From positions 2,100,370 through 2,164,369 of the forward strand of contig NZ_CP043875.1 in NCBI RefSeq assembly GCF_032878975.1: DNA of 64,000 nt. The letters are read 5' to 3'. Below, one piece after another: positions 4,987 to 34,563 of this stretch. This DNA is from Methanoplanus sp. FWC-SCC4. GTDB lineage: Archaea > Halobacteriota > Methanomicrobia > Methanomicrobiales > Methanomicrobiaceae. Below the pieces are notes generated by a model that was not told the DNA's origin, ran no database searches, and saw only the letters and a list, made by a program, of their open reading frames with translations. Made by a program: the position numbers and the translations under genes. How positions within the stretch are numbered: the first letter of the stretch is position 1; the number at the start of each line of letters is the position of its first letter.

Positions 4987-6156
4987 ATGAAATACATAGT
5001 AATCCTCGGCGACGGAATGGCAGATGAGCCGATAGAGGCACTTGGAGGAAAGACACCTCTCGAATATGCAAAGACACCCAACATGGACAGGATTGCCCGC
5101 GAGGGAAAATGCGGAATGCTTCATACGGTACCACAGGGTTTTGAGCCGGGGAGCGACATTGCAAACCTTTCGGTTCTGGGATATAAACCAGAAGAATGCT
5201 ACACCGGAAGAGGGCCTCTTGAAGCAATAAGCATGGGTCTGAATTTAAGTGACACAGATATCGCCTACCGCTGCAACCTTGTAACCATAAACGGCAGCAC
5301 AATGGAGGATTTCTCCGCAGGGCATATAACATCGGAGGAGAGTGCCCTTCTCTTCAGCTCACTCAATGAAAAAATAAAGGGCATTGCAACCGGTTACCCA
5401 GGCATCAGCTACAGGAATCTTTTGGTTGTCCCTGACGGGAAAGGGGCAAAATCAACACCGCCCCATGACATAACCGGTGAGGATATTGCCGAATACGTCC
5501 CAAAAGACGGGGACGCAGAAATCCTCCAGAGAATAATGGAAATAAGCAGAGAGGTTTTCTCAAACCATCCTGTAAATGAGAAAAGAATCCGGGAAGGAAA
5601 AAAACCGGCAACACAGGTATGGCCCTGGAGCGGAGGAAAAAAACCGGCTCTTGAAAACTTCAGGGAAAAATACGGGCTTTCCGGAGGAATGATCTCGGCA
5701 GTGGATCTCTTAAACGGTATCGCTGCGGGTGCCGGAATGAAGGTGATTTCAGTCCCGGGCGCAACAGGATACCTTGACACAGACTACGAAGCAAAGGCAC
5801 GATACGCAATAGAGGCTTTAAAAGAACTTGATTTTGTGTATATGCATGTGGAGGCACCCGATGAGGCAGGCCATCTGGGAAGTTATGAGGAGAAGGTGAA
5901 GGCAATTGAGCGCCTTGACGAGGTAACAGGTCTGATACTTAGTGAAACAGATGCGGTTGTTGCTGTTCTCCCCGATCACCCGACACCAATAAGGATCAAA
6001 ACACATACAAATGAACCTGTTCCGTTTGCAATACTCGGGAAGGGAACTGACGACTGCCTGATTTACTCAGAGAAGGAGGCAGCAAAAAAAGGCGGATTCG
6101 GGATACAAAAGGCTGAAAATTTCCTGAAAATCATGTTCTCTCAGGAAAACGAATAA
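4987..6156 (+). CDS. apgM: 2,3-bisphosphoglycerate-independent phosphoglycerate mutase, archaeal type
   Basis: 389 residues. The archaeal alkaline-phosphatase-superfamily PGM interconverts 3- and 2-phosphoglycerate in glycolysis and gluconeogenesis. GDGMAD at residues 8-13 brings the first metal ligand (Asp9) and GSDIAN at 55-60 the phosphorylated Ser56. C-terminal metal-binding motifs (EAPDEAGHLG; VLPDHPTP) are present. It lies 77 bp after the epimerase gene on the same strand. A second, unrelated phosphoglycerate mutase lies at 59.0 kb, so the organism carries both types. Confidence 0.95.
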   Translation: MKYIVILGDGMADEPIEALGGKTPLEYAKTPNMDRIAREGKCGMLHTVPQGFEPGSDIANLSVLGYKPEECYTGRGPLEAISMGLNLSDTDIAYRCNLVTINGSTMEDFSAGHITSEESALLFSSLNEKIKGIATGYPGISYRNLLVVPDGKGAKSTPPHDITGEDIAEYVPKDGDAEILQRIMEISREVFSNHPVNEKRIREGKKPATQVWPWSGGKKPALENFREKYGLSGGMISAVDLLNGIAAGAGMKVISVPGATGYLDTDYEAKARYAIEALKELDFVYMHVEAPDEAGHLGSYEEKVKAIERLDEVTGLILSETDAVVAVLPDHPTPIRIKTHTNEPVPFAILGKGTDDCLIYSEKEAAKKGGFGIQKAENFLKIMFSQENE

Positions 6157-8655: not shown

Positions 8656-9459
8656 TTACAGGTTCTTTAAGATATCCTGGTAACCTGAAACTGTCTTTTC
8701 AAAACCGCCCATAATCTTTGCCGCTACCATCGGATAGGAGAGAGGGTCGATTTCAACAGCTTTATTGTAGGATTCCACAGCCTTTCTGTGAGATTCAAAT
8801 GATGACATATCATAGCCTGTCTTTTCGCCGGAGGGCGCCCTTCCAAGCTCTTTGTACATATCCTTCAACTGACCCTGGAGGTACATGGACTTGAATAAAT
8901 AAGCGTCACCAAGTCCTATCCATGCTCCTGCATTTGAAGGTTCTTCATTAATTACAACATTGTACGCCTCAATGGCCTCATCATACCTCTGAAGTTTAAT
9001 CAGAACATCTGCCTTCTCCATAATGGCTGATGAGTCATCCGGACTGGTCTTCAGCATAAGCTCACAGCTTTTTAGAACCTGCTCATATGAGTCAACAGAA
9101 TCTTTTGTATTGTTCGTTCTGGCGTTTAAAACCGCAAGGTTGTGCCAGTCTTCCTTTGTCATGTCCAGAGGGGATAATTCCTGTATGATTCTCTGATTCT
9201 CAAGGGCACCCTCGTAATCCTCAAGTATTGTGAGCACTGCAACCTTTCTTTTAAGAATTTCAGAGTCATAGGGTGAATCCTCAAGCATCCAGTCACATGC
9301 GGAAAGACTCCATTCGTACTTTTTGTTCTCAAGGCCAAAATCCGCAATTGAAAGGGCAGTACTTTTCTTTAAATCCGGATTTGAAGAGATCAAAGAGGGC
9401 ACTGCAATTGACAGGATGATTAAAATGAGAACAATGTAGATCAATGTCTTTATTTTCAT
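8656..9459 (-). CDS. Membrane-anchored TPR protein
   Basis: 267 residues. Residues about 5-24 form an uncleaved-looking membrane anchor (LIYIVLILIILSIAVPSLI); the rest is helical with several tetratricopeptide units, the clearest around YDEAIEAYNVVINEEPSNAGAWIGLGDAYLF and SHRKAVESYNKAVEIDP. TPR arrays hold protein partners. It is divergent from the archaellin-like gene at 9575, so the pair may share a regulatory region and possibly a role in secretion or assembly, which is inference. Confidence 0.8.
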   Translation of the reverse strand: MKIKTLIYIVLILIILSIAVPSLISSNPDLKKSTALSIADFGLENKKYEWSLSACDWMLEDSPYDSEILKRKVAVLTILEDYEGALENQRIIQELSPLDMTKEDWHNLAVLNARTNNTKDSVDSYEQVLKSCELMLKTSPDDSSAIMEKADVLIKLQRYDEAIEAYNVVINEEPSNAGAWIGLGDAYLFKSMYLQGQLKDMYKELGRAPSGEKTGYDMSSFESHRKAVESYNKAVEIDPLSYPMVAAKIMGGFEKTVSGYQDILKNL

Positions 9460-9574
9460 ATTCCTGTTTAGGCGGTTTTGTAAACGATCAGTATATTATA
9501 ATTCCCATTATGGGAAGGGCTGTTAAATTTGGAAAATGCTAAAAGGAGAGCGGTATTAATACCAGATAAGCATT

Positions 9575-10231
9575 ATGCATAAAATATTAAATTTAAAAAA
9601 TGCAGACGGGCTGACAGGTCTTGAACTAATTATTGCAATAGCAGTCATATGCATTTTTATCTATCTCTTTGCAGGCATCATTTTCAACGCATCCATGCCT
9701 GATATGAATCATAAAAGTCCCGGGGGAATTGTGGGATTTGCCGTTTCAGAAACCGGATACCTGCTTATTGTGGACGGCGACTGCTACGGCATGCAGGATA
9801 CAGGCGGCACAGCAGGGACTATTACACTAGTGAGCGAAAATCCGTCATCTTCCGCCATGGGAAGCTGCCAGATTCCTGTGAAGCTTGTCACTGGCAGCAC
9901 AGGGGCGATTGAAATGGATGGTGCAGAGATTGTATTTACATACAAAAATAAATCAGAGAAGCTTTCATATTCCGGGAATAATCCTCTCTTTAAACCTGCA
10001 TGGACAATTTCAGACAAGTCAGGTGTCATTCCGTTTCAGGACGCTGATGAGGATTTGCTCCTTGAACCAAACGAGATCTTCACCATTCTTGTATATCAGA
10101 GCACACCTGTGGAGGCATACGATTCATTCCAGGTCTCGCTGACACCAAAGAGTTCGCTTCCGCTGGACATCGGATTCAAAGTACCGCCTCAGATCAGACA
10201 GAACAGGATTGTAACACTTCTCCCTGTATAA
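9575..10231 (+). CDS. Archaellin/type IV pilin-like secreted protein
   Basis: 218 residues. The N-terminus has a short leader ending in Gly before LTGLELIIAIAV, then a long hydrophobic helix. This is the class III signal of archaellins and pilins, which FlaK/PibD-type peptidases cut just before the hydrophobic stretch (compare G-FTGLEA in archaellins). The C-terminal half has the archaellin-like beta domain layout, including a DEDLLLEPNEIF segment and an ending rich in hydrophobic strands. No archaellum operon genes (flaCDEFGHIJ) are near, so it may be a solitary pilin/archaellin paralogue. It is followed after 11 bp by the OB-fold gene, which suggests one transcript. Confidence 0.7.
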   Translation: MHKILNLKNADGLTGLELIIAIAVICIFIYLFAGIIFNASMPDMNHKSPGGIVGFAVSETGYLLIVDGDCYGMQDTGGTAGTITLVSENPSSSAMGSCQIPVKLVTGSTGAIEMDGAEIVFTYKNKSEKLSYSGNNPLFKPAWTISDKSGVIPFQDADEDLLLEPNEIFTILVYQSTPVEAYDSFQVSLTPKSSLPLDIGFKVPPQIRQNRIVTLLPV

Positions 10232-10242
10232 AAACGGATAAA

Positions 10243-10617
10243 ATGATCTTTGGAAAAGAAGAAAAAACTGCAATAACAGCTCTTATTATTGTTCTTGCAA
10301 TAATTATTGCGGCTCACATATTCCTTTCATCTGCAGGAAAGGAATCCTTTGCAAAAAAGTATGACAACTCTTCAGAAACAAATGATCTCGTTACCTATGA
10401 GGGAATAATAAAAGAGATTTCAAAAACAAAGACAGGCGGCCATCTTTTAATAAAAACAGACGATATCATCATTTTCATATCAGGCGGTGCTGACAAAAGC
10501 GTTAATTTTTCACCTGGACGTGAGATAAAGGCAACAGGAACGGTTCAGTTTTACAAAAACCAAAAGGAAATCATCGTAAACAGCATTTCGGATATTGAAA
10601 CCTTCCCAATAAAATAA
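10243..10617 (+). CDS. Membrane-anchored small OB-fold protein
   Basis: 124 residues. An N-terminal membrane segment (about residues 9-29) is followed by an OB-fold-like beta barrel: VTYEGIIKEISKTKTGGHLLIKT, then IFISGGADKSVNFSPGREIKATGTVQFYKNQKEIIV. The pattern matches the tRNA-anti/YhcR-type OB domains found in extracytoplasmic nucleases and DNA-binding proteins. The barrel probably faces outside the cell. It starts 11 bp after the archaellin-like gene, so the two are probably cotranscribed. A role in binding extracellular nucleic acid is inference only. Confidence 0.6.
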   Translation: MIFGKEEKTAITALIIVLAIIIAAHIFLSSAGKESFAKKYDNSSETNDLVTYEGIIKEISKTKTGGHLLIKTDDIIIFISGGADKSVNFSPGREIKATGTVQFYKNQKEIIVNSISDIETFPIK

Positions 10618-10636
10618 AAAAAGATAATTTTAAATT

Positions 10637-11263
10637 TTAGCTGAAGAGATCGTCTTCATCGTCAATATAGAGGGCACTTTTTCCGGAATCAGCATCATTA
10701 ACGTCTTTTTTAGAACCGGCCTTCTTTTCAGAACTTTTTTTGCCTGACTTTATTGTCCTCTGGTTTCTCTGGTCAGTGTATCCAAATCCGGTGTAGAAAG
10801 GATCCTCTTTTTTTGTCACCATCTCGGATTCAATACTTCCGGGACTGTCCCCTCCATGAATTGCTCTCTCCTCAGAGGTGTTTTTAGATAATTCCTCAGA
10901 ATCATGTTTTTCTTTATTCTCAGTTTCGGGTTTGATTCTGTCAAATGTTTTTTTCCGGCCTCCTGATGAGCCGAAACCACCGGAAAATATGTCTGAATCG
11001 TCTCCGACTGATGAAGCACCCGAATATTTCCGCTTTGGCGATGAAGATCCAAAACCTGTGGAAAATATATCTGAATTATCAGAAATATGCGAATCTCCCA
11101 TTGCCTTCCTGTCCGGCTTTGAACTGCCAAAACCTGTATCTAAAGGATCATCATGGCTTTTATCCCCGGAGTTGTCAGAAGGGATTTTGGACTTTTTCCT
11201 GCGGCCCTCTATTCCCTCTCCCTCGAGAGCACCTGAAATGATCTTTTCGCGTGGCATACTCAA
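10637..11263 (-). CDS. Disordered charged protein with TGFGSS repeats
   Basis: 208 residues, not recognised. It is strongly hydrophilic (Lys, Asp, Ser, Gly) with no membrane segment or signal. A motif of the form D-x-x-(S/T/Y)-(T/G)-GFG-S/Y-S/T followed by basic residues occurs four times: DPLDTGFGSS, DIFSTGFGSS, DIFSGGFGSS and DPFYTGFGYT, spaced by about 26-70 residues. The protein ends in a sharply acidic tail (IDDEDDLFS). Regular short motifs in a disordered chain suggest a scaffold that presents several copies of a binding peptide. It is convergent with the OB-fold gene, 19 bp apart, and divergent from nothing obvious. Confidence 0.65.
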   Translation of the reverse strand: MSMPREKIISGALEGEGIEGRRKKSKIPSDNSGDKSHDDPLDTGFGSSKPDRKAMGDSHISDNSDIFSTGFGSSSPKRKYSGASSVGDDSDIFSGGFGSSGGRKKTFDRIKPETENKEKHDSEELSKNTSEERAIHGGDSPGSIESEMVTKKEDPFYTGFGYTDQRNQRTIKSGKKSSEKKAGSKKDVNDADSGKSALYIDDEDDLFS

Positions 11264-11537
11264 GAGTTATTGCATTGTATTCATATTAAGATTGAGGATG
11301 AAGTCCTATTTTTAGAGTATTTATATTAAAAAACCTTTTTTTAAAAGATGAAAATAAATAACATTGTATCATTAAAACCTTTATTTCCCCTGCAAAAGAA
11401 CATATTTCAAAGAGCAAACCGGATTTTTTTTAAAAAAAGGTCAAAAAATATTTTTCTGCTACCGGTTTTATGAGAACGTAAATTTTCGTTTTCGTGAAAG
11501 CCCGGGGTTTTATAAAAAAGTTTCAGGGATATTATGG

Positions 11538-13067
11538 TCAGAGACCACCGGTATCAGGGTTTAGTGCCCATACCGGAATATCCATTGAAAACCCGAGAGC
11601 CCATGTGATTATGGTAAACATAAACACGGTCATTATAATAATACCGATTATGTTCAAAACCCAGCCGGTTCGTACCATATCACGCATGCTTACATAACCC
11701 GATCCGTAAGCAACCGCATTTGGCGGTGTCGCAACCGGAAGCATGAATGCCATTGAACATGCAAATGCGGCAGTGAGCATCAGGAAATACGGGTGAATCC
11801 CCATACTGACCGATGTTACAGCCATAATGGGCATCATAACAGACGCCATCGCTGTGTTGGATGTTACTTCAGTCAGTAGTGAAACTATAATCGCAACAAC
11901 AAGTACACCGATAATTATCGGGAGACCATGCAGTATTTCCATATAATCCATTATGACATTTGCAAGACCGCTTTTTATGAAGGCGGTTGAAAGACAGATA
12001 CCTCCTCCAAACAGAATTAGAATGCCCCACGGAATTTTCTTTGCCCACTCCCAGTTCATTGTGTATACCCCTTCCTGACGGTTTACAGGAAGAAGGAAGA
12101 GAAGAACCGCACCTGCAATTGCAATCGTTGAATCATGAACAAAAGGCAGGAAGGTGTTTATGCCAGGGATTACAATACCGCCGATATTCTTCTCTGATCT
12201 GAGAATCCAGGCGACTGCGGTCATCACAAATACCATAAGTGTCCATTTTTCACCTCTGCTCATCTTCCCGATTGACTTTAACCTGTCATGAATAACATCC
12301 TTTCCGGAGGATATCTTTGCAGGCATATGCCTGTAAGGACCATATGTAAGCCATAACCAAGCAATCGGCAGAAATACAAAGGCCAGCGGAAGGGCAAACT
12401 TCATCCATGTAAAGAAGTCAATCGCAGGTGCATCGGGGAAAATGGTCTCCATCTGGGCAATAAAAATGCCGTTTGGAGGGGTTCCGATTATGGTTGCAAG
12501 TCCTCCTATTGTAGCTGCATAGGCAATGGAGATAACGAGACATTCGGAAAAATCCCTCTGAGTCTCACTCATTTCCTCAAGTCTTGTATCTTTCTGTGGA
12601 AGAATGGTCGCAATAATTGCGATTGCAATCGGGACCATCATCATGGCCGTTGCAGTATTGGAAATCCACATTGACAAAAAGGCGGTTGCAACCATGAAAC
12701 CCAGAACAAGCATTCGGGGAGAAGTTCCAACCCTGTCTATTATGTGAAGAGCTATTCTTTCATGAAGGCCCCAGCGCTGCATAGACATCGCAATTATAAA
12801 ACCTCCCATGAAAAGAAAAATTATTTTATCAGCATAAGGTGCACACGCCTCTGCCGGAGTCAAAACCCCCAGTAACGGGAAAATAACGACCGGCAAAAGT
12901 GCAGTTGCCTGAATTGGAATCGCCTCGGTGACCCACCATATAACCATCAGCAATGTGCCTGCAGCCACATATTTTGCATCGATTGGGAAGGTGGATGGGT
13001 CGACCGGATATAGCAGTACAATTAAAAAGACTGCCAATCCGACATATCGGCCCAGAGTTTTCTTCAT
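11538..13067 (-). CDS. SLC13/DASS-family sodium:anion symporter
   Basis: 509 residues, an integral membrane carrier of the divalent anion:Na+ symporter family. Two SNT motifs, the hallmark of the substrate/sodium sites, are visible in the two repeats: ISNTATAMMMVP and TSNTAMASVMMP. GTPPNGIFIA and ATPPNAVAYGSG also match conserved hairpin segments. The family imports C4-dicarboxylates, citrate, sulfate or phosphate; methanogens could use it for succinate/malate or sulfate, and the sequence alone does not decide. It stands alone, with AT-rich DNA on both sides. Confidence 0.9.
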   Translation of the reverse strand: MKKTLGRYVGLAVFLIVLLYPVDPSTFPIDAKYVAAGTLLMVIWWVTEAIPIQATALLPVVIFPLLGVLTPAEACAPYADKIIFLFMGGFIIAMSMQRWGLHERIALHIIDRVGTSPRMLVLGFMVATAFLSMWISNTATAMMMVPIAIAIIATILPQKDTRLEEMSETQRDFSECLVISIAYAATIGGLATIIGTPPNGIFIAQMETIFPDAPAIDFFTWMKFALPLAFVFLPIAWLWLTYGPYRHMPAKISSGKDVIHDRLKSIGKMSRGEKWTLMVFVMTAVAWILRSEKNIGGIVIPGINTFLPFVHDSTIAIAGAVLLFLLPVNRQEGVYTMNWEWAKKIPWGILILFGGGICLSTAFIKSGLANVIMDYMEILHGLPIIIGVLVVAIIVSLLTEVTSNTAMASVMMPIMAVTSVSMGIHPYFLMLTAAFACSMAFMLPVATPPNAVAYGSGYVSMRDMVRTGWVLNIIGIIIMTVFMFTIITWALGFSMDIPVWALNPDTGGL

Positions 13068-24542: not shown

Positions 24543-26171
24543 TTAGCCTCTTTTCCTGCTGCAATATAAAATTACAACAAAAATTCCCAATACTATAATA
24601 TTTATTCCAAATCCCGGTGCTGCGGTTGGTTCTGTATATGGTTTCATAGCAACAGAAACTGTTGAAGTGCCCCCCGCAGAGACGGTAACTTTTCCGTGAG
24701 AGTCACCATATCCGTCAAGTTTCAGCATAACCTGATGCTCGCCTGCGGTAACGCCGCTTATTTGAACAGGAGTTATCCCTTTATAGACATCGTCTATGTA
24801 AACCCCTGCACCCTCCGGATCAGATGTGACAGAAACTGAACCTGTAAGCGGCTCTGTGAACGGGACAAGTACTGCATGCACCCATGCTGTTTGTCCGCTG
24901 CTGACGCTTGTCTGTACTTCATAATCACGATATCCTGTTTTTTCAACAGATATTGTGTATGTTCCGGGATTAAGAGTTAATGCATACGACCCCTGAGTGC
25001 CCTGTTCTCCTGTAAGTCCCATGTAACGCCCGTCAAGATAGACTTCCGCTTCTCCGGGTTCTGATGTTACTCTCACATATCCCTTGTTTGAACCTGCGAC
25101 AGGGACGAGACGTGCATGAACCGTCATGACAGCATTTTTCTTTACAAATTGGGTCCCTTTCCATTCGGAATAACCCGAAGCCGTGACTTTTATGTCATGA
25201 TTTCCAACTACAAGATTTTTTACGGTTACAGTTGAGAGGCCTCTGTATATTTCATCAATATAAACACCGGCACCGGCGGGATCTGATGAAACTGAGAGTG
25301 TCCCGTATTCTGTCTCTGTCTGAAGAGTGTATTCCCTTGTAAGCGTCTGCCCGGTTGAGATGAATATATTCTCGTTAATTTCACGATAACCACTTTTTGC
25401 GATCTGAAGGGCATGTGATCCCGGTTTTAATGAGGCTGTTAAAGGTGTTGATCCTTTGAAATTCCTGTCTACATATACACTTGCACCGGAAGGATTTGAA
25501 TAGACAGTAAGTTGTCCGTTTGTTGAGGGTTCAGGCTGAAGTGTCAGATATGTATTAACGGTCTGTCCGGCTGAGGGAGGCAAAGGAAGGTTTTGTGACA
25601 CTGAAATATATCCGGATTTGGAGACTGTCACTTTATTGTATGGTGTTGAACCGACTGTGTATTCTACGGTTAACTGCCCGTTTTTGGTTGTTCCTTTTAG
25701 TAGTCCGTCAAAATAGACATTTGCGTTGTCAAGATTGCAGTGTACTACATACCAGCCGATTCCGGGTTCGGGTGTGGGTGTCACTGTCGGAGGAGCAGTT
25801 GTCGGTACAGGAGTTTGTGTCATTGTAGGAGTTGGAGTCTCCGTTTCTGTCGGGGTCTTTACAGGCTCAAGTGTTACAGATATCCCGCTCTGCTCACCAG
25901 GAGAGAGGGTTACTGATTCTGTTTTTGATTCATAGCCGGTTTTTGAGACAGTTATCTCATGTGTTCCGGATTCTATTTCATAGCCGGTTATAGGAGTATT
26001 GCCAATATCTCTTCCGTCGATTGCAACATTTGCAGCGGAGGGATCCGATGTTATTGTTATATAACCCGTTACAGGGAGGACTGTTGCGTTGTCTTCCGCC
26101 AGTACGGGGGATGAAAGAAGTAATATGAAATAAACAAGTATTAGTGCCAGCTGGAGTTTTTTCACATACAT
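24543..26171 (-). CDS. Secreted PEGA-repeat surface protein with PGF-CTERM-like tail
   Basis: 542 residues. A signal peptide (LILVYFILLLSSPVLA) precedes a first PEGA domain (YITITSDPSAANVAIDG). A Thr/Pro-rich linker (about 108-140) comes next, then about five more PEGA-like units, each with a (V/I)xSxPxxAxVYxDxxxxGxTP core. The C-terminus is PGFG, a hydrophobic stretch and RKRG, the layout of a PGF-CTERM sorting signal cut by archaeosortase, so the protein is probably lipid-anchored at the cell surface. PEGA domains are beta modules tied to cell-surface structures. It is related to the PEGA protein at the right edge of the window. Confidence 0.9.
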   Translation of the reverse strand: MYVKKLQLALILVYFILLLSSPVLAEDNATVLPVTGYITITSDPSAANVAIDGRDIGNTPITGYEIESGTHEITVSKTGYESKTESVTLSPGEQSGISVTLEPVKTPTETETPTPTMTQTPVPTTAPPTVTPTPEPGIGWYVVHCNLDNANVYFDGLLKGTTKNGQLTVEYTVGSTPYNKVTVSKSGYISVSQNLPLPPSAGQTVNTYLTLQPEPSTNGQLTVYSNPSGASVYVDRNFKGSTPLTASLKPGSHALQIAKSGYREINENIFISTGQTLTREYTLQTETEYGTLSVSSDPAGAGVYIDEIYRGLSTVTVKNLVVGNHDIKVTASGYSEWKGTQFVKKNAVMTVHARLVPVAGSNKGYVRVTSEPGEAEVYLDGRYMGLTGEQGTQGSYALTLNPGTYTISVEKTGYRDYEVQTSVSSGQTAWVHAVLVPFTEPLTGSVSVTSDPEGAGVYIDDVYKGITPVQISGVTAGEHQVMLKLDGYGDSHGKVTVSAGGTSTVSVAMKPYTEPTAAPGFGINIIVLGIFVVILYCSRKRG

Positions 26172-26486: not shown

Positions 26487-28016
26487 ATGGTAAAAAAAAG
26501 TAGAACAAATCAGAAGGTCAAAAATTTTTCCAAAGGTTATAATAGCGAAAACTTCACAGAAGAAAATTATTCTGTAAAATCAACAGCAGATCTTAATTTT
26601 AATAACCTGAAAAATGTTTTAATGACAAACAAATATGCCTGGATGTTAATATTTCTGACATTTGCAGGGTTTGTCCTCAGGTTTTATAATCTGGGTTTCA
26701 ATTCAATATGGCTGGATGAAGGTTCTACAATTAACTTTGCCCAGAGATCTCTTTCCGGAATATGGGAGGCAACTATCGGAGGAGGCGAGTTCAATCCTCC
26801 ACTATTCTATTATCTAGAACATTTTATGCTGACTTTCGGAGAAAGTGAAGTAACACTAAGATTTTTGCCTGCACTATTTGGTGCACTCTGTATTCCCATA
26901 ATGTATTTTATCGGAAGAGAAGCGGTAGATGAAAAAAGCGGCATCATTGCAGCTGCACTGATGACTTTTTCCTCATTTCAGATATTCTACTCACAGGATG
27001 CAAGAGCATATACAACAGTCCTCTTCTTCTTCTCAGTTGCCCTGATTTGTTATCTGTGGGCCCTTAAAAACAATAATATAAAGTGGTGGATACTTTTCGG
27101 TCTTTTTTCGGCAATATCTTTCTGGACACATTTTTATATTGTCATTGCAGTTGGTATCATTTTCCTTCATGCAATTTATACTAACAGAAATGAAATCAGG
27201 GAGAATATATCAAACATAAAACCAGTGCTTGCAGCCTTTGCAATTTTTACAATAATTACAATTCCAATAATAATTGCCACAATAACATTGTTTTTTAAAC
27301 GTGCAGCAGGAGGAGAAACATGGGGCCTGAAAGGAATTGATGTAATAACAACAACTTTTGTCCAGATCTCAGGAGGAAATGTTATGATAACATTAATATT
27401 TGGTCTTCTGGCTCTGGCAGGTGGGTATAAGATATTTACAATGAAAAGGGATCTGGCTGTCCTTATTGGGTTATCTCTTATTCTCCCGTTTATTGCAAGT
27501 TTTATTCTGTCAGCTGCAATACCAATGAGTCCTAGATATCTCATATATTTATTGCCTTTTTATTTCATGGCAATTGCAGGCTCTGTTAAATATCTCCCCG
27601 AATCCTATAATTCAGAAAAAATTGCAGCATTGGCGATAGTTATTATTCTTCTGCTAAATCTGCCAGCACTAATGCCATATTATACAACATATTCAAAAAA
27701 TGACTGGAGAGGTTTTTCAACAGCCCTTGAAAGTGTTACAAATGAAGGAGACAAAGTTGTTCTTCTGCCTGGATATATGCACCAGCCCTTTGATTATTAT
27801 TATGATAATGAAACAGACAGGACCGAGGTATATCAGTATTATACAAAAGAAGAACTCAATGTTCTTTCTGAAGAGAATCCCAACTCTACAATATATTATG
27901 TAGTTACCGGCGATATTATGTCAGCCGATCCGACAGGAGGTTCACTACAGTGGCTGGAACAAAATGCAGTTTCTTCAGGTCAACATACGGGAATATATGT
28001 GTTTAAGTCAAAATGA
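26487..28016 (+). CDS. GT-C glycosyltransferase, ArnT/PMT_2 type
   Basis: 509 residues. A hydrophilic N-terminal tail of about 50 residues precedes about 12 membrane segments. The acidic motif WLDEGSTINFAQRS after the first membrane helix and YSQDARAYT in a later loop are typical of dolichyl-phosphate-sugar transferases of the PMT_2/ArnT type. These enzymes move a sugar from a polyprenyl-phosphate carrier on the outer face. The C-terminal soluble region is exposed. It begins a two-gene unit with the GT2-GtrA protein (16 bp gap), which probably makes its lipid-linked donor. Confidence 0.9.
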   Translation: MVKKSRTNQKVKNFSKGYNSENFTEENYSVKSTADLNFNNLKNVLMTNKYAWMLIFLTFAGFVLRFYNLGFNSIWLDEGSTINFAQRSLSGIWEATIGGGEFNPPLFYYLEHFMLTFGESEVTLRFLPALFGALCIPIMYFIGREAVDEKSGIIAAALMTFSSFQIFYSQDARAYTTVLFFFSVALICYLWALKNNNIKWWILFGLFSAISFWTHFYIVIAVGIIFLHAIYTNRNEIRENISNIKPVLAAFAIFTIITIPIIIATITLFFKRAAGGETWGLKGIDVITTTFVQISGGNVMITLIFGLLALAGGYKIFTMKRDLAVLIGLSLILPFIASFILSAAIPMSPRYLIYLLPFYFMAIAGSVKYLPESYNSEKIAALAIVIILLLNLPALMPYYTTYSKNDWRGFSTALESVTNEGDKVVLLPGYMHQPFDYYYDNETDRTEVYQYYTKEELNVLSEENPNSTIYYVVTGDIMSADPTGGSLQWLEQNAVSSGQHTGIYVFKSK

Positions 28017-28032
28017 TCTATAGGCCGATGAG

Positions 28033-29145
28033 ATGGAAAAATACGATCTTACAATAATAATTCCCACTTTTAATGAGAGAGACAATATAGAAAATATTGT
28101 TGAGTCCGTATCAGGCGTTATGCATGATGCAGGCATCATAACCGAGGTTCTGGTTGTTGATGATAATTCTGATGACGGAACCATTGAGAAAGTCAGGGAG
28201 ATGCAGGAAAAATATTCCAACCTCGAACTTATTGTCCGTTATGATGACCACGGTTTGTCGCAATCCGTCACTGAAGGTTTTTACAAGGCAAAAGCAGATA
28301 TAATTCAGGTTATTGATGCTGATTTTTCCCATCCTCCAAAAATGATTCCGGAATTTTATACTTCTGTTGCACAGGATGGAAATGATGTTGTAATCGGAAG
28401 CAGATATTTAAAAGGAGGAGACATTGAAAACTGGCCTCTAAAAAGACGTTTAATCTCTCTTGGCGCGACATTTTTCGGGAGAATTTTATTTCCGGAAATT
28501 ACCGATCCTGTAAGTGGTTTTTTTGCTATAAAACGCGATGTGATAAAAAATGCAGTGATGAAACCCCGGGGATATAAAATTTTAATGGAAGTTCTGGGAA
28601 AAGGCCACTGGTATCAGGCAAAAGAGATTCCTTTTGTATTTAAAGATCGTGAAGAGGGGGACAGCAAACTCAAACTCTCAACAATAATAGATTATATTCT
28701 GCAGTGTATCGACATTGCTGTTTATTCTTTTAAGCATCATGAGACAAATGTCTGGCAGGAATGGAAAAAAATCTTTAAATTTGCTGCTGTCGGCATATCA
28801 GGGATTTTTGTAAATGTCGGCCTCCTATATTTTTTAACAGAGTATTTCGGGATATTCTATCTCATATCCAGTTTAATTGCAATTGAAACCTCAATTATTA
28901 CAAATTTTATCCTCAACGATCTATGGACATTTAAAGGTAATGAATCAAGATTTTCTAAAAAATGGCACAGATTCGTTTCTTTCCAGTTTGTTTCTGTAAT
29001 GGGTGTTCTGATAAATATGGGCATATTGTGGGCCCTTACGGAATTTGCAGGACTTTATTATGTCATTTCAAATCTGTTTGGTATCGGTGCCGCGTTTGCC
29101 TGGAATTTTCTGGTTAACAGGAATATTACCTGGAAGAAAATATAA
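28033..29145 (+). CDS. Dolichyl-phosphate hexose synthase-like GT2 fused to GtrA domain
   Basis: 370 residues. The first 230 residues form a GT2 catalytic domain of the DPM1 type: TIIIPTFNERDNIENIV, DDNSDDGT and the metal-binding VIDADFSHPP. The last 125 residues form a four-helix GtrA-like membrane domain (FAAVGISGIFVNVGLLYFL). The enzyme would load a sugar from a nucleotide donor onto a polyprenyl phosphate, and the GtrA part anchors it or assists flipping. Placement directly after a GT-C gene supports a donor-maker/transferase pair. Confidence 0.9.
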   Translation: MEKYDLTIIIPTFNERDNIENIVESVSGVMHDAGIITEVLVVDDNSDDGTIEKVREMQEKYSNLELIVRYDDHGLSQSVTEGFYKAKADIIQVIDADFSHPPKMIPEFYTSVAQDGNDVVIGSRYLKGGDIENWPLKRRLISLGATFFGRILFPEITDPVSGFFAIKRDVIKNAVMKPRGYKILMEVLGKGHWYQAKEIPFVFKDREEGDSKLKLSTIIDYILQCIDIAVYSFKHHETNVWQEWKKIFKFAAVGISGIFVNVGLLYFLTEYFGIFYLISSLIAIETSIITNFILNDLWTFKGNESRFSKKWHRFVSFQFVSVMGVLINMGILWALTEFAGLYYVISNLFGIGAAFAWNFLVNRNITWKKI

Positions 29146-30129
29146 TTATCTATCCTTTACTTTTTCAAATTTTGTGATCTTTATAGGATATTTCAACCAG
29201 AATAAAACTCCGATAAGAGCAATCAGATAATAACAGATAAAAAGATATAAAAATGAGAATGCCAGCGCACTCTCAGCTGAAATTCCCTGAAGGCCAAATA
29301 AGTACACAAGAGCAAAGTCACGGGTTCCAATCCCGGAAACACTTATTGGGAGCAATTCAATTATACAGATTATAGGAATTACAACGACCATATATAGAAA
29401 AGGTATATCTATTCCAAGTGAAAGTGCCATTGTGTACGAATAAAAAAAAGGAATGATCCACGAAAGAATACCAAATACTGATGCAATCAATAGTTTAACA
29501 GGATTAGCAATTAAAATTTTAAGACCTGAATAATAACTTTCAAAATAACCCCATAATATTCTAAACAACTTTTCAGGCAGAATCCTTTTTAAAACCGGCA
29601 TTACAATGTTATCCCCAAAATTTCTACTGAAAAGCAGAAATATTGTAACTAGCATGAACAAAATAATAAAGAATATCAGTTCATTTGGAATGATACTTGT
29701 GTTAAAGAAATATGAAAATACAATTAATGAAATTGTTCCCATTATAACCAGCATAACAATATCAATTATTCTGTCCATAACAACGGCAGAAAGTGCCATA
29801 CCATATTCACTGTTTTTATTTTTTAAATAGAATATTCGAACCAAATCACCCATTTTGGCAGGCATTATTACAGAGAAAGAGAGACTGACCAGATATGACG
29901 CAAGTGCTTCAGTGTTTGAAAATTCGGGACTTATTATCTTTGCAATATATCTCCATTTTAGAACCTTGAATAAAATTCCAAAAAAATAGATGATTAACGT
30001 AATTGACAATATTACAAGATCAATATTTGAAAATATATTTAATATCTCATCCAAATTTACATTGCTTATAATGTATGCAAACAGTACCAGTCCAACAGCA
30101 ATAGTTAAATATTTTATTTTATTTTTCAT
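29146..30129 (-). CDS. LPG-synthase-like/AglD-type integral membrane protein
   Basis: 327 residues, about eight membrane segments, of the lysylphosphatidylglycerol synthase TM region family (UPF0104). The domain motif (LPISVSGIGTRDFALVYLFG, near residues 250-270) and the earlier PAKMGDLVRIFYL segment are clear. In archaea such domains occur in AglD-like proteins and are thought to help move or modify lipid-linked sugars. It sits among glycosyltransferases, immediately convergent with the GT2-GtrA gene (no gap), and heads a three-gene minus-strand order with the methyltransferase and GT2 genes. Confidence 0.85.
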   Translation of the reverse strand: MKNKIKYLTIAVGLVLFAYIISNVNLDEILNIFSNIDLVILSITLIIYFFGILFKVLKWRYIAKIISPEFSNTEALASYLVSLSFSVIMPAKMGDLVRIFYLKNKNSEYGMALSAVVMDRIIDIVMLVIMGTISLIVFSYFFNTSIIPNELIFFIILFMLVTIFLLFSRNFGDNIVMPVLKRILPEKLFRILWGYFESYYSGLKILIANPVKLLIASVFGILSWIIPFFYSYTMALSLGIDIPFLYMVVVIPIICIIELLPISVSGIGTRDFALVYLFGLQGISAESALAFSFLYLFICYYLIALIGVLFWLKYPIKITKFEKVKDR

Positions 30130-30140
30130 GCTTAAAGAAT

Positions 30141-30842
30141 TTAAACTGATTTTTTTGCAATTACACCAACGCCATATGCATAATGTTGTTTGTATGGGAA
30201 ATAATTCTCAACCTTACATATTTTTTTACGAATATTTTCAGACAAAATTTCCTTATTATTTGTAGCAAGGGGCAGTAATGCCTGAATACCGAATGAATCA
30301 ATAATTTCAAGATCCGGAGATGCCCTATTGATCGCATTTTTAAGCCTTGAGAGTGAGTAATCCTCTTCATATCCAAATTCAAATCTATTGGTTTTTATAG
30401 AGAGATATTTCCAGATCCTGTACCATAAACAATGACTGTTTGGAACAATAATCATCAAATTGCCTCCCTTTCTTGTAATTCTTGCCATCTCTTTTATGGC
30501 CCTTATATTTCCAGGTTCACGGAAGTGCTCAATAACCCCGGAATTATATACCAGATCAAAAGTTTCGTCAGGAAAAGGCATATTGAACATGTCCCCATTT
30601 ACAGGATTATCACATTTTGATTTTGCAATTTTAAGGGCATTTTTAGAGATATCTAATCCTGTGGTACTATGGCGCCGGGAAAAGATTTCAAGTGTCTGTC
30701 CCGTACCGCAACCAACCTCAATAATTTTTTTTCCAGCAGATAAATTTGCATCCAGTTTTTCGATAAAATTCAGATAATTCAGACTATAATCACTATTTAC
30801 CTTTTTATTATCCCATACATCATCCCAGACATCCGTGACCAT
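30141..30842 (-). CDS. SAM-dependent methyltransferase in glycan cassette
   Basis: 233 residues, a class I methyltransferase. Motif I IIEVGCGTGQTLEI lies at about residues 38-51, followed by TTGLDISKNAL and the FDLVYNSGVIEHF motif IV-like region, then MARITRKGGNLMIIVPN. Enzymes of this group methylate sugars, lipids or quinones. Its place between a GT2 gene (12 bp) and the AglD-like gene (11 bp) suggests it decorates a glycan or lipid carrier. Low GC content matches its neighbours. Confidence 0.85.
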   Translation of the reverse strand: MVTDVWDDVWDNKKVNSDYSLNYLNFIEKLDANLSAGKKIIEVGCGTGQTLEIFSRRHSTTGLDISKNALKIAKSKCDNPVNGDMFNMPFPDETFDLVYNSGVIEHFREPGNIRAIKEMARITRKGGNLMIIVPNSHCLWYRIWKYLSIKTNRFEFGYEEDYSLSRLKNAINRASPDLEIIDSFGIQALLPLATNNKEILSENIRKKICKVENYFPYKQHYAYGVGVIAKKSV

Positions 30843-30854
30843 AATTATATCCTT

Positions 30855-31595
30855 TTATTTATTCAGCATAAGCCTAAATATTGATTTTATGTACGTTTTA
30901 AACTGTCTGAAATTGAATTTTGAAGATCCAAATTCCCTGTTAACAAGCACGAATGGAACTTCAATCAGTTTAAAACCTGCTTTTTCCGCCTTTATTGTCA
31001 ACTCAAGCTGTATGGCAAAAGTCTTTTCCCGCAGTGAAATTTGTTCAAAAATCTCTTTTTTGCAGATACGAAAACCACTTGTTGCATCTTTGGTTTTTAT
31101 TCTGAAAAACATATGAAATGCAACCTGTGCCACTCTGCTTAACGCCACTCTCCAAAGAGGTACATTCTTCATTCCACCTCCTTTTACATATCTGCTGGCA
31201 ACAACCATGTCATATTCATTTAGATATTCAGCCATGTCCGGCAGGAGTGAGAGAGGATGTGTCATATCACAGTCAATCTGACCAATGTACAGGTAATTTT
31301 TATTTAAACAATAATTTCTTCCACTGTTCAGTGCTTCAGCAAAACCTTTGTTCTTTTCATGGTTAACAGATTTCACCCACGAATACTTTTTTTCATTTTC
31401 AGTAATCATTTTGTAGCTGTCATCTTTGCTTCCGTCATTGACGAAAACAAAATCAAAACCGGCAAGTTCACCCCGCTCTTTGTAATGATATATTTTTTCA
31501 ATTAATTTGGGGATGTTCTCACTTTCATTATAACAGGGAACAACAATGCAGATCCCGTCAGAACAATTAAAGGTCTTTTCAAATTCTGCCATCAA
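30855..31595 (-). CDS. GT2 glycosyltransferase, DPM1/PglD-like
   Basis: 246 residues, no membrane segment. CIVVPCYNESENIPKLI, VNDGSKDDSY and the QIDCDMTHPLSL metal-binding motif are classical for polyprenyl-phosphate hexose synthases and related GT2 enzymes. Unlike the enzyme at 28.0 kb it lacks a GtrA domain. First gene of the minus-strand trio GT2, methyltransferase, AglD-like protein; about 12 bp separate each pair. Confidence 0.9.
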   Translation of the reverse strand: MMAEFEKTFNCSDGICIVVPCYNESENIPKLIEKIYHYKERGELAGFDFVFVNDGSKDDSYKMITENEKKYSWVKSVNHEKNKGFAEALNSGRNYCLNKNYLYIGQIDCDMTHPLSLLPDMAEYLNEYDMVVASRYVKGGGMKNVPLWRVALSRVAQVAFHMFFRIKTKDATSGFRICKKEIFEQISLREKTFAIQLELTIKAEKAGFKLIEVPFVLVNREFGSSKFNFRQFKTYIKSIFRLMLNK

Positions 31596-31709
31596 TGATT
31601 ATAATTTCTATTTTTATCGGTATAAAGAATATGTCTTAATTTTTAAAATTTATTTAAACATTACATAATAAAAAGCAGGACTTATCTATTTATATTCACA
31701 ATTAAAATT

Positions 31710-33029
31710 ATGAAAGTGGGGAATAATAAAATAAAGAAAGACAAGTTTTCACTGTTGGGTATTGAAATCCCTGGAATAAACAAGGAGAATTTCCAAAAAC
31801 ACATAATAATACTTCTATTTATAGCAGTTTTTACAAAAATCGCAGTTTTATTTGCCACAACCAATTTATTTCATTCTTTTATTGATTTGTTTGATATATC
31901 TATATACCTGCAATATGCTGTAAATATCTATGGCGGCCAGATACCATATGTTGACTTCCCTGTTGAGTACCCGGTTCTATTTCTGATCCCGGTTCTCCTG
32001 CCCTTACCCTTTGCAGTTCTCACAAATGATGCTTATACATATATTTATGCGTATCAGATTATAATGTCAGTTTTTGATCTCTTCACTTTAATTTTTGTGT
32101 ACCTTATCTCACTGAAAATATTTGATAAAAAAACAGCTTTTATTTCCGGAATTTTGTATGCAACCGCATTTTCTGCGGCATATTTTATTTTAACAAAATT
32201 TGATTCATTTCCTACGTTTCTGCTGACACTTGCACTTATGCTTACTTTATACAATAAACAAATTGAAGGTTATATTTCCATTATTCTTGGTTTTTTCACA
32301 AAAATATTCCCTGCTCTTGCAGCACCATATATAATATTGTATAATTCAGACAATTCTGATTTAAAGACTGAAATTCTAAAATTTTTAAAATATGCATTGC
32401 CTTTTGGAATAATTCTTTTTATCCCGTTATTCCTTCTGAATCCTGAAATAATAAATACATATCTCTTTGCAACAGGAACAAGCGTCGGCGTCTATGCCAA
32501 TACGGCAACGTATACGATATCCTCAATCTTAAATGCCCTTGGTCTGAATATTTCTCCGGATTCTGTTTCAGTTGTAATGTATACACTGATGATTTTAACA
32601 TTCATATACCTGATATTGACAGCATTTTTCCAGAAAATAAAAGAGGAACGCAGGTTATTATCCTTTATTTTGCTGACAATATTCTCGGCTGTATTCTTCA
32701 CAAAATTTCACAGTCCTCAGTACATAGTCTGGATGACTCCTTTCTTTGCAATACTTCTCGCTGAATCTCTAAAGGGGATTATAATGTTTTATGCGGTACA
32801 GGCTCTTGCTTATGCTGAGTTTCCACTGCTATTCAATACATTTTATCAAAATCAGGAATATATATTCAGTATGGGAACTTCAGGATGGTATACGATAGTT
32901 TTCTTCTTTACGATTGAATACCTCGTCCTGCTTGTAACAATCCTATTCATTATAAAAAATGATAAAGGATTAACAGATAGTTTTAAGGAACTCCCAAAAA
33001 CATTGGTTTCCAGATATAAAATTAAATAA
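31710..33029 (+). CDS. GT-C/GT87-like mannosyltransferase
   Basis: 439 residues with about ten or more membrane segments. An early acidic motif (FIDLFDISIYLQYAVNIYGG) and YVDFPVEYPVLFLI place it among GT87/GT-C polyprenyl-phosphate-dependent transferases; FTKFHSPQYIVWMTPFFA is the usual late loop. It would add a hexose to a glycan at the outer membrane face. It starts a plus-strand pair with wecB. Confidence 0.8.
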   Translation: MKVGNNKIKKDKFSLLGIEIPGINKENFQKHIIILLFIAVFTKIAVLFATTNLFHSFIDLFDISIYLQYAVNIYGGQIPYVDFPVEYPVLFLIPVLLPLPFAVLTNDAYTYIYAYQIIMSVFDLFTLIFVYLISLKIFDKKTAFISGILYATAFSAAYFILTKFDSFPTFLLTLALMLTLYNKQIEGYISIILGFFTKIFPALAAPYIILYNSDNSDLKTEILKFLKYALPFGIILFIPLFLLNPEIINTYLFATGTSVGVYANTATYTISSILNALGLNISPDSVSVVMYTLMILTFIYLILTAFFQKIKEERRLLSFILLTIFSAVFFTKFHSPQYIVWMTPFFAILLAESLKGIIMFYAVQALAYAEFPLLFNTFYQNQEYIFSMGTSGWYTIVFFFTIEYLVLLVTILFIIKNDKGLTDSFKELPKTLVSRYKIK

Positions 33030-33085
33030 AATTATTATTTCCTGAAACACTTTTATCATCTTTATTTACAATTATTATTCATACA

Positions 33086-34165
33086 ATGATCTCAATAATC
33101 CTCGGTACACGTCCCGAAATCATCAAGATGTCCCCTATTATTAGGGAATGTCAAAAAAGGAATATTACATTTAACATTATCCATTCGGGTCAACACTATT
33201 CAAAAAATATGGACAGCGTTTTTTTTGAGCAGCTTGAACTTCCGGCACCCGATTATAATATCCATGTGGGTTCAGGAACACAGGCTGAACAAACAGGAAA
33301 TGCACTAATTGGCATTGAAAGAATACTCCTTGAGAAAAGACCTGATATTGTTCTGGTACAGGGGGATACAAATACGGTACTTGCCGGGGCAATTGCAGCC
33401 TCAAAGCTGAATATAAAAATAGGACATGTTGAGGCAGGACTTAGAAGTTATTTCAGAGAAATGCCTGAAGAGATAAACAGAGTTCTTACCGATCACTGCT
33501 CTGATTATCTTTTTGCACCTACTGAAAAATCAAGGAATATACTTCTAAAAGAGGGAATTTCAGACAAAAATATATTTGTAACAGGGAATACAGTTGTTGA
33601 TGCCGTATACCAGAATCTCGAACTTAGCAAAAAAAAGATAAGTATTCTAAAAGATTATAATCTGAAAAAATCAGGCTATATTCTTGCCACTGTTCATAGA
33701 AAAGAAAATGTGGACAATCCTGTAATTTTCAGGAATATTTTAAATTCTTTTTTAAGAATTTCAAATGAGTTTAATATCCCGGTTATCTATCCAATTCACC
33801 CAAGAGCTAAAAAGATGATGGAAATGTTGGATTGTAATTTAAGTGGCATAATTTTTACTGAGCCACTTGATTATCTCTCATTTCTTCAGTTGGAACAGAA
33901 TGCAAAAATTATTCTGACTGATTCAGGCGGACTACAGGAAGAGGCATGTATTATGAAAGTCCCCTGTGTAACACTGCGTGATAACACTGAAAGACCTGAA
34001 ACGGTTGATGTTGGGGCAAACATTCTTTCAGGAACGTTATCTGAAAGTATTTTCAAAAGTGTTGAGAAGATGATGAGCATAAAAGCCGAATGGATCAATC
34101 CATTTGGTGATGGTAGCTCATCTAAAAAAATATTGGATATTCTCAATAAAGATCAGCTATTGTAG
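33086..34165 (+). CDS. wecB: UDP-N-acetylglucosamine 2-epimerase (non-hydrolysing)
   Basis: 359 residues, full length. IILGTRPEIIKMSPII, HSGQHYS, LVQGDTNTVLAG and GHVEAGLRS are all family motifs, and LTDSGGLQEEA closes the active site in the C-terminal Rossmann domain. It interconverts UDP-GlcNAc and UDP-ManNAc for surface glycan synthesis. The usual partner, UDP-ManNAc dehydrogenase (WecC), is not in the window. It ends the glycan cassette. Confidence 0.95.
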   Translation: MISIILGTRPEIIKMSPIIRECQKRNITFNIIHSGQHYSKNMDSVFFEQLELPAPDYNIHVGSGTQAEQTGNALIGIERILLEKRPDIVLVQGDTNTVLAGAIAASKLNIKIGHVEAGLRSYFREMPEEINRVLTDHCSDYLFAPTEKSRNILLKEGISDKNIFVTGNTVVDAVYQNLELSKKKISILKDYNLKKSGYILATVHRKENVDNPVIFRNILNSFLRISNEFNIPVIYPIHPRAKKMMEMLDCNLSGIIFTEPLDYLSFLQLEQNAKIILTDSGGLQEEACIMKVPCVTLRDNTERPETVDVGANILSGTLSESIFKSVEKMMSIKAEWINPFGDGSSSKKILDILNKDQLL

Positions 34166-34176
34166 CTTCAAAAATA

Positions 34177-34563
34177 TTATTCCCCAAAAACCACCTCATC
34201 CTCCTCCCTCCACTCCGGAGAAACCATCGCAAGAAACACAAGATCACAATCCCCCCTGTTCTCAATATACTGAACAGACCCCGGAGGAATGTACACAACC
34301 TGGCCGGATGACATCTCACTAACCTCAGAGTCAATGTGCATCTGTCCTTTTCCTGCCAGAATGTAATACACCTCACTGGACTCTTTTAGCATGTGGGGAA
34401 TGGTTTTTTCACCAGTCGGAACTATTGCATGCACAATGCTGTACCCCATTTGAAGTTTTAAATCCCCGTAATCTTTCTCGTCTTTTGGATGCAGAAGTTC
34501 ACACAAAAGACAGTTGTCCCCTGCACGAAAATAATCCGCATCCTTTATGTCCCTAATGAGCAT
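34177..34563 (-). CDS. Cupin-domain protein
   Basis: 128 residues, a single small beta barrel. The cupin motifs are visible as TGEKTIPHMLKESSEVYYILAG and later GSVQYIENRGDCDLVFLA. The metal-ligand His/Glu pattern is partly altered (the first motif has one His and a Glu), so the metal site may be incomplete. Members include sugar isomerases and binding proteins. It converges with wecB, 11 bp away, but is on the other strand. Function not known. Confidence 0.8.
   Translation of the reverse strand: MLIRDIKDADYFRAGDNCLLCELLHPKDEKDYGDLKLQMGYSIVHAIVPTGEKTIPHMLKESSEVYYILAGKGQMHIDSEVSEMSSGQVVYIPPGSVQYIENRGDCDLVFLAMVSPEWREEDEVVFGE

Follow-up and report, generated by a model that had tools for sequence, protein, structure and literature searches.

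Positions 26487–34165 of the Methanoplanus sp. FWC-SCC4 stretch analysed here (the whole stretch, 64 kb long, is referred to as the window) are filled by seven open reading frames without internal stops, labelled A to G. The genome to which they belong is 2.31 Mb long in a single contig, and its near relatives are Methanomicrobiales, including Methanoculleus, Methanoregula and Methanomicrobiaceae. A first-pass annotation had singled out this seven-gene cluster as a surface-glycan cassette. All seven genes are indeed intact, and the combination that it proposed, two polyprenyl-phosphate-sugar-synthase-like GT2 enzymes with two GT-C enzymes, is supported by domain content and by clustering in relatives. 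The block is a real, conserved and modular glycosylation locus in which known enzyme types occur in a new combination, and it most likely makes a mannose-carrying lipid and uses it to decorate cell-surface molecules. Its genes are the following.

26487–28016, plus strand: A, GT-C membrane glycosyltransferase of the protein O-mannosyltransferase (PMT)/ArnT/STT3 type, 509 amino acids (PF13231, 2.5e-14; PF02366, 36.5 bits, cut-off 22.7)
28033–29145, plus strand: B, dolichyl-phosphate-mannose synthase (DPMS) homologue (PF00535 (GT2) and PF04138 (GtrA_DPMS_TM))
29146–30129, minus strand: C, LPG_synthase_TM/flippase-like membrane protein (PF03706, 3.4e-43; TIGR00374 above cut-off)
30141–30842, minus strand: D, S-adenosylmethionine-dependent methyltransferase adjoining C (PF08241, 1.9e-21)
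30855–31595, minus strand: E, GT2 enzyme, polyprenyl-phosphate-sugar-synthase-like, lacking a membrane domain (PF00535, 5.2e-23)
31710–33029, plus strand: F, GT-C mannosyltransferase-like protein of the ALG3/PIG-M/PimE fold, 439 amino acids (structure model; the window copy has no Pfam match)
33086–34165, plus strand: G, non-hydrolysing UDP-N-acetylglucosamine (UDP-GlcNAc) 2-epimerase, WecB (TIGR00236, 438.3 bits, cut-off 210.15)

The genes form three strand blocks, A-B (plus), E-D-C (minus) and F-G (plus), with spacings of 16 nucleotides (nt) between A and B, 12 between E and D, 11 between D and C and 56 between F and G. The strand switches described in the first-pass annotation therefore exist, whereas the strict alternation that its wording implied does not.

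Clustering and modularity in relatives

Gene content was compared across 61 neighbourhood loci (L numbers) picked for holding A or F rather than at random, four genomes (G013, G028, G041 and G103) giving two loci each. The locus counts were obtained with a simple open-reading-frame caller that missed some genes recovered by tblastn (D, E and G in L054, A in L137, A and B in both L141 and L143). All seven genes were called in seven loci, namely the window, L114, L115, L116, L055, L057 and L058, and tblastn completes the set in L054 as well; its recurrence in six other mapped loci and in L054 is more than chance would produce. Within the set, the pairings are strict. A and B are neighbours in all 39 loci where both were called, 38 times on the same strand and within 100 nt, and C-D and D-E are each neighbours in 11 of 11. 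E was called in 21 of the 61 loci, every one of which also has either C or f18, another LPG_synthase_TM protein (PF03706 in the copy scanned), the two being mutually exclusive. GT2 genes of cluster x27, some of them weakly E-like, adjoin neither C nor f18 and were not counted as E.

The same linkage is seen at the level of genomes. F is present in 24 of 120, the window's own included, and A (E-value < 1e-40) in 62; A lies at most 5.5 kb from F on the same contig in 18 of the 23 F-bearing relatives, among them G073, where A is just a fragment at a contig end. The exceptions are G028, G058, G078, G106 and G114, with F on contigs shorter than 10 kb in G058, G078 and G114. The nine of 120 genomes that have C (matches at E up to 1e-20) are the very nine that have D (E up to 1e-30); the two genes are adjacent in all nine and at most 3.6 kb from A in all eight relatives that bear them. 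Orthologues are thus clustered rather than scattered, in keeping with the first-pass annotation, and the locus consists of an A-B core that is old and of modules that can be exchanged: F; G; and E paired with either C-D or f18.

A hot spot at which seven unrelated glycan genes gathered without a common product might look much the same in places, since A-B stands alone in G008 and in several loci of group f4 (L136, L142, L145, L146), gene order and content vary, and E is swapped for another GT2 in three f1 genomes. Such an origin is nevertheless very unlikely in view of the pairings given above, which hold in every locus with both partners called, E with C or f18 included (21 of 21).

Two side observations were made in these neighbourhoods. 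L144 of genome G061 contains two adjacent, strongly diverged A copies (8866–11994). A protein of 742–779 amino acids, membrane-like by eye, lies near A in four genomes (L130 1659–3923; L131 4367–6706; L139 5537–7765; L140 11779–14088), and no Pfam match was found in the three copies scanned (L131, L139, L140).

History and insertion site

Guanine-plus-cytosine (GC) content is 0.340 in the block and 0.401 in a genome sample of 400 kb. The value of the block is low but not extreme, 18 of 260 equal-size windows being as low. The low GC of the first-pass annotation is thereby confirmed, and the block does not resemble the genome average; the recent gain that it had raised did not hold up. Among the 31 loci, the window included, that measure 15 kb or more and have three or more cassette genes called, the cassette genes are GC-poorer than the rest of the locus in 29 (the exceptions being L057 and L064), in surroundings that range from 0.396 to 0.619. 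Low GC is therefore a durable property of these genes and does not argue for recent gain. Gene trees largely track archaeal families, with 8 label changes for A (minimum 7), 2 for D (2), 4 for G (3) and 8 for F (5), the trees of F and E coming from a short search. In the A tree, the A genes of two f6 genomes fall inside the f1 clade and those of G001 and G005 outside it. A set of diverged A, GT2 genes and F occurs together in Methanolobus vulcani (L072), a probable transfer outside the order. The E genes of G000, G005 and G015 are a separate GT2, set apart on very long branches from E in the 18 remaining loci and joined to them in one cluster by the single pair L128–L055 at 36% identity, while C and D beside the replaced E remain orthologous. 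The E slot thus reads as one in which the enzyme, and perhaps the sugar too, has been replaced.

The site of the cassette is bordered by two genes.

24543–26171, minus strand: PEGA-repeat protein (PF08308, five stretches)
34177–34563, minus strand: cupin gene, followed by the PPI, 35225 and DP1 genes

The PEGA gene is also a site border in G001, G008 and G015. Within the family of the window, a strong A match lies at most 5 kb from DP1 in six of the seven DP1-bearing relatives among G001–G014 (G001, G005, G007, G008, G011 and, if its contig is circular, G013), the two genes being on different contigs in G009; the site in G015 is the same as the window's. As a counter-example, the flanking genes are absent from the 20 kb around A in G022 (L133). 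What occupies the site differs: B-A only in G008, E-D-C and A in G005, all seven genes in G015, and in G007 A-B with F, f18, E, G and sugar-nucleotide genes. The start of A points to the cupin/PPI side in G005, G007, G008, G011, G013 and G015. In the window A lies towards the PEGA gene and G towards the cupin gene, and the most likely explanation of this difference is that the A-G block was inverted, with respect to its flanks, in the window lineage; G001, whose A belongs to another clade, has A oriented as in the window. A phase-variable inversion was considered and rejected. Long inverted repeats flanking the block were not found, and among the 25 longest of 117 inverted repeats only two pairs straddle it (25 nt at 76%; 22 nt at 82%, this second pair extending beyond the cupin, PPI and 35225 genes), a pattern that lends a recombinase-driven switch no apparent support.

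These data bear on the notion that the cassette is a recently acquired genomic island. The GC difference, the limited occurrence of F and of C-D among the 120 genomes, and the transfers that do occur (f6 A in the f1 clade, A of G001 and G005 outside it, the diverged Methanolobus set) would fit it. It is largely refuted, and extremely improbable, given the GC-poor cassettes of the relatives, label changes near the minimum in the trees, and a site between PEGA and cupin-PPI-DP1 that is common to relatives; in addition, the window has no tRNA and the block ends no long repeats.

Elsewhere in the window, the genes at 4987–6156 and 59002–59754 appear by eye to be the two kinds of phosphoglycerate mutase, cofactor-independent and -dependent.

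The enzymes and their acceptor

The product of gene B aligns over residues 5–368 with the DPMS of Pyrococcus furiosus (5MLZ; E-value 1.4e-82), a full-length alignment in which a GT2 domain is followed by the GtrA/DPMS membrane domain, as in the P. furiosus type (PfDPMS). On this strong homology B is a PfDPMS-type dolichyl-phosphate-mannose synthase homologue, with a predicted GDP-mannose:dolichyl-phosphate mannosyltransferase activity. E matches the catalytic part of PfDPMS (4.5e-27), and C consists of the PF03706 membrane domain by itself. The AglD protein of Haloferax combines GT2 with PF03706 (LPG_synthase_TM). What the first-pass annotation called an AglD-like protein is C, which answers to the membrane half of AglD only and has no GT2 domain according to Pfam. 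Here E and C are encoded by two genes, separated by D, and not as one polypeptide; both domains are present and genetically linked, as the association of E with C or f18 indicates. When 100 genomes of the phylum were surveyed for PF03706, 30 loci were obtained (best matches, not random). A GT2-like domain is fused ahead of PF03706 in seven (L147, L150, L151, L154, L155, L167, L171), Pfam finding both domains in all four fusions scanned, and a GT2-like gene adjoins PF03706 in another seven (L149, L152, L153, L157, L162, L164, L168); in 16 of the 30 the short stretch around the gene has no GT2 match. We regard E and C as a split AglD-type pair, the pairing being observed directly and an AglD-like role presumed. 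Through this pairing and its fused counterparts, LPG_synthase_TM proteins whose role is unknown gain a link to a function. From gene context we conclude that methylation is a probable recurrent companion of GT2/PF03706 pairs. A weakly D-like methyltransferase adjoins the GT2-LPG_synthase_TM fusion in L150 (743–3159) and L155 (750–3147), and a methyltransferase adjoins the PF03706 gene in L176 (1456–3079).

The nearest solved relative of G is the UDP-GlcNAc 2-epimerase 4NEQ (residues 2–354, 439.6 bits), presumably from Methanocaldococcus jannaschii. G is WecB by its family cut-off, with UDP-2,3-diacetamido-glucuronate 2-epimerases coming next at 311 bits and more than one substrate conceivable. 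The first-pass annotation had pointed to a WecB without WecC. The former stands by TIGR00236, whereas elsewhere in the genome there are two full nucleotide-sugar dehydrogenase matches above cut-off, one nearest to archaeal UDP-N-acetylmannosamine (UDP-ManNAc) dehydrogenase and below that family's cut-off (291 bits, cut-off 750), the other nearest to AglM (515 bits, cut-off 670). ManNAc or a ManNAc-derived uronic acid is a possible G-derived sugar. A second, larger glycan locus was noticed in the genome (L035 4582–19965 and L036 226–1056), with acetyltransferase-, aminotransferase- and nucleotide-sugar-dehydrogenase-like genes and, by eye, rhamnose-type and FnlA/B-like genes and a second Epimerase_2, the GC content of its genes falling to 0.26. 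That second epimerase was considered as a WecB duplicate and set aside, as it directly follows the FnlA/FnlB-like genes (L035 18023–19965) and is read by eye as of the N-acetylfucosamine type.

For A, the structure model (predicted local distance difference test, pLDDT, 85.6) retrieves in the VIA list Pmt4 with Z 29.9 (root-mean-square deviation, rmsd, 3.0 over 344 residues), ArnT with Z 27.9 (4.9 over 427) and STT3 with Z 27.6 (5.1 over 434). A combines two marks of PMTs, a PF02366 score above cut-off and a DE motif; its D77 and E78 are invariant in 23 A sequences. In the account of the motif given in PMC12331936, the DE pair of PMTs lies in the first outer loop, a place matched by D77-E78. 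A PMT_4TMC or MIR domain was not found in A by Pfam at E 0.001. MIR may be absent from some prokaryotic PMTs. Searched against solved proteins, A alone gave no relative by phmmer at E up to 1, and a profile of the A alignment (A2) gave only AglB, over 43 residues, and no PMT.

It is conceivable that A is an archaeal PMT fed by B, with surface proteins bearing Thr-rich linkers as targets, for example the adjacent PEGA protein. Beyond Pmt4 topping the VIA list, PF02366 and the invariant motif, this idea gains from the PEGA protein itself, which has a Thr/Pro-rich linker and borders the site in four family loci, window included. It loses from ArnT and STT3 scoring within 2.3 Z units of Pmt4, from the Foldseek and profile searches that favour STT3 and AglB, from the missing PMT_4TMC/MIR domain, and from the absence of a PEGA homologue beside A in the Methanoregula and Methanoculleus loci mapped by tblastn. 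On balance we find it distinctly improbable. As a side observation, the PEGA protein ends in a PGF motif, hydrophobic stretch and basic tail, archaeosortase-signal-like by eye but with weak profile support (Heimdall-CTERM at 18.7 bits, cut-off 24); the genome has three archaeosortase A-type matches above cut-off.

The model of F (pLDDT 92.1) is closest in the VIA list to ALG3, with Z 28.2 and rmsd 3.1 over 347 residues, spanning F residues 27–422 of 439; the yardstick for this score is solely the lower rows of the same list, which are glycosylphosphatidylinositol (GPI) mannosyltransferase I (GPI-MT1; Z 24.9, 5.0 over 370), GPI transamidase chain U (23.6), which we take to be PIG-U, ALG6 (23.0) and PimE (19.8). 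ALG3, GPI-MT1, ALG6 and PimE move mannose or glucose off a lipid phosphate, as is partly stated in the entry titles. By its model, F thus seems to resemble mannose-adding secretory-pathway enzymes of human and yeast. Like the GT50 and GT58 enzymes, it has the GT-C fold over most of the chain and an acidic residue in the first outer loop, D59 and D62 being invariant in 27 F rows and placed, within the membrane part, between predicted helices one and two. In the Foldseek order GPI-MT1 leads (E 3.4e-5), and PimE comes ahead of ALG3. One F profile (A3), run against 177,635 solved sequences at E up to 10, retrieved three GPI-MT1 chains (0.0042, 0.01 and 0.26) and nothing else, with D62, G-x-x-PY and QY-x-x-W positions matching in two of the alignments; another (A1) gave no match to solved structures at E up to 1 or 10, so the link in sequence from F to PIG-M depends on the alignment. 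PF05007, the PIG-M family, is above cut-off in none of the 120 genomes, the window's own having no match, and gives a sub-cut-off signal (E up to 0.1) in 13 of them and in two of 14 control genomes; six of the 13 signals, the three best included, lie inside F-family genes and the other seven elsewhere. PF09594 (GT87) matches one of 20 F members (6.1e-5 at best) and not the window F at E up to 1.

Close F relatives are found almost exclusively in Methanomicrobiales. A match at 1e-10 was found in 14 of 196 genomes of the phylum, 11 of them Methanomicrobiales (own genome included) and three, partial, in one other family. Of the 60 loci from a scan of the genome collection, 28 are good matches (all Methanomicrobiales save one Methanolobus), four are archaeal but weaker or partial, and 28 are bacterial, at 19–30% identity, so that F is not without bacterial relatives. 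The archaeal relative L112 (2714–3886) was assigned to GT87. A frame of Sifarchaeum, presumably an Asgard archaeon, gives a weak near-full-length F match (E 3e-4) and falls into GT87. According to the passages on these enzymes in a 2016 phylogenetic study (PMC4973528), luminal mannosyltransferases appear eukaryote-specific, with just very distant PMT/DUF2029 relatives. B and F might, by common descent, be the archaeal counterpart of the luminal half of N-glycan and GPI assembly in the eukaryotic endoplasmic reticulum, with a dolichyl-phosphate-mannose synthase coupled to an ALG3/PIG-M-type mannosyltransferase that lengthens a lipid-linked glycan at the outer face of the membrane. In that case enzymes described as eukaryote-only would have in F a prokaryotic relative that can still be traced. 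We regard this origin as improbable, the more so because 28 bacterial loci hold weak F relatives. The link of F to ALG3/PIG-M is all the same the part of the locus worth following, since F is an archaeal enzyme through which one can study how the luminal mannosyltransferases of eukaryotes arose.

An oligosaccharyltransferase does exist in this genome. AglB, an STT3 of the archaeosortase-associated type (821 bits), is encoded 42 kb upstream of A, opposite in direction to adjoining acetyltransferase-, aminotransferase- and UDP-GlcNAc 3-dehydrogenase-like genes that score below specific cut-offs (L033 2002–7457; genome 2082371–2087826) and are perhaps a 3-amino-sugar set for the N-glycan. The first-pass remark that AglB is absent applies to the cassette, and protein N-glycosylation stays a possible route; with AglB elsewhere in the genome, its absence here is by itself no argument against N-glycans. 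Candidates for AglB near A in relatives, frames of about 850–900 amino acids in three Methanoregulaceae-type loci, turned out to encode large PAS-domain proteins (L139 12741–15293; L144 4899–7472; L080 383–3073).

The acceptor may not be a protein at all, A and F then building or finishing a glycolipid or exopolysaccharide in the way that ArnT acts on lipid A and PimE on phosphatidylinositol mannosides; this differs from the reading that we prefer, decoration of surface glycans, just in the acceptor. A fits ArnT about as well as it fits Pmt4, F matches PimE, the oligosaccharyltransferase is missing from the cassette and from the relatives' loci, and the sugar-nucleotide genes of the G007 site (UDP-GlcNAc 3-dehydrogenase-like by profile, acetyltransferase and aminotransferase by eye) suit polysaccharide loci too. 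Set against this are the top VIA match of F, ALG3, an enzyme of lipid-linked N-glycan assembly, and the position of AglB beside 3-amino-sugar genes like those of the G007 site. A non-protein acceptor is a serious if unlikely alternative.

Proposed pathway and known systems

We propose, with a probability of roughly 65%, that the cassette represents an order-wide modular locus of Methanomicrobiales for dolichyl-phosphate-mannose-dependent decoration of surface glycans, with E and C as a split AglD-type pair. In the first step B would load mannose onto dolichyl phosphate at the inner face of the membrane, and in the second E would load another dolichyl phosphate, C serving it as membrane partner or flippase. 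Flipping of the charged lipids across the membrane would follow, with C or the GtrA domain of B as the possible flippase. At the outer face A and F may then transfer the lipid-borne sugars to a surface glycan that is being built up, F, to judge from its modelled fold, as a mannosyltransferase acting on the glycan and A as an enzyme of the PMT/ArnT/STT3 type. G would supply UDP-ManNAc, or a uronic-acid form via enzymes encoded elsewhere, for the cytoplasmic part of the glycan, and D would methylate a sugar or lipid intermediate of the E-C pair. The likeliest acceptor, and the weakest step of the scheme, would be a lipid-linked or protein-bound N-glycan of AglB.

Several observations weigh against this proposal. 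A Pfam scan found no Wzx/AglR-type flippase among the cassette genes. AglB is not part of the cassette, and tblastn found none in 62 relatives' loci, the six weak hits all lying inside A genes, so that linkage provides no evidence for the N-glycan route. A lacks a called B in nine of 48 A loci (two of them, L071 and L075, through misses of the caller), and G005 has A, C, D and E with B absent. C and D are on opposite strands in six of the nine genomes having both, and are thus linked there but not one operon. The E of the window differs from that of most relatives and, being a different GT2, cannot be assigned its sugar from theirs. In the Foldseek order STT3 proteins come first for A and Pmt4 third, and for F ALG3 is just tenth (E 0.0041).

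A literature search, with most subscription journals outside it, found no worked-out glycosylation pathway for Methanomicrobiales and nothing on this seven-gene locus; what had been a loose gene list becomes a defined locus in that order. According to the 2016 study (PMC4973528), no archaeal O-mannosylation had been described, and a 2021 study speaks of the archaeal O-glycosylation pathway as still elusive where it takes up the subject (PMC8241124).

Compared gene by gene, the cassette resembles characterized systems to different degrees. B matches every domain of the P. furiosus DPMS, GtrA membrane part included, and differs in its setting, a cassette with GT-C genes known here from sequence. 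G matches the WecB of 4NEQ over residues 2–354. The PMTs are family GT39 and ArnT GT83; A has their fold and DE motif, without the PMT_4TMC/MIR domains of the former. With ALG3 (GT58) and GPI mannosyltransferase I/PIG-M (GT50), F has nearly the whole fold in common, whereas its similarity in sequence is marginal. F also has the fold of the GT87/PimE group; it has weak relatives in bacteria and an archaeal one, L112, in GT87, and the window F has no GT87 Pfam match.

The closest counterpart of the whole scheme is the mannose branch of S-layer N-glycosylation in Haloferax volcanii (AglD-AglR-AglS). There, as outlined in PMC3871713, a GT2 enzyme puts mannose on dolichyl phosphate, the lipid is flipped, and a membrane mannosyltransferase adds the sugar to a glycan on the outside; aglD sits outside the gene cluster of its pathway (PMC3871713). 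The same succession of loading, flipping and transfer is proposed for the cassette, with these differences: E and C divide the AglD-type enzyme between them, a PfDPMS-type B comes in addition, an AglR-type flippase is missing from the cassette, and two GT-C enzymes are present.

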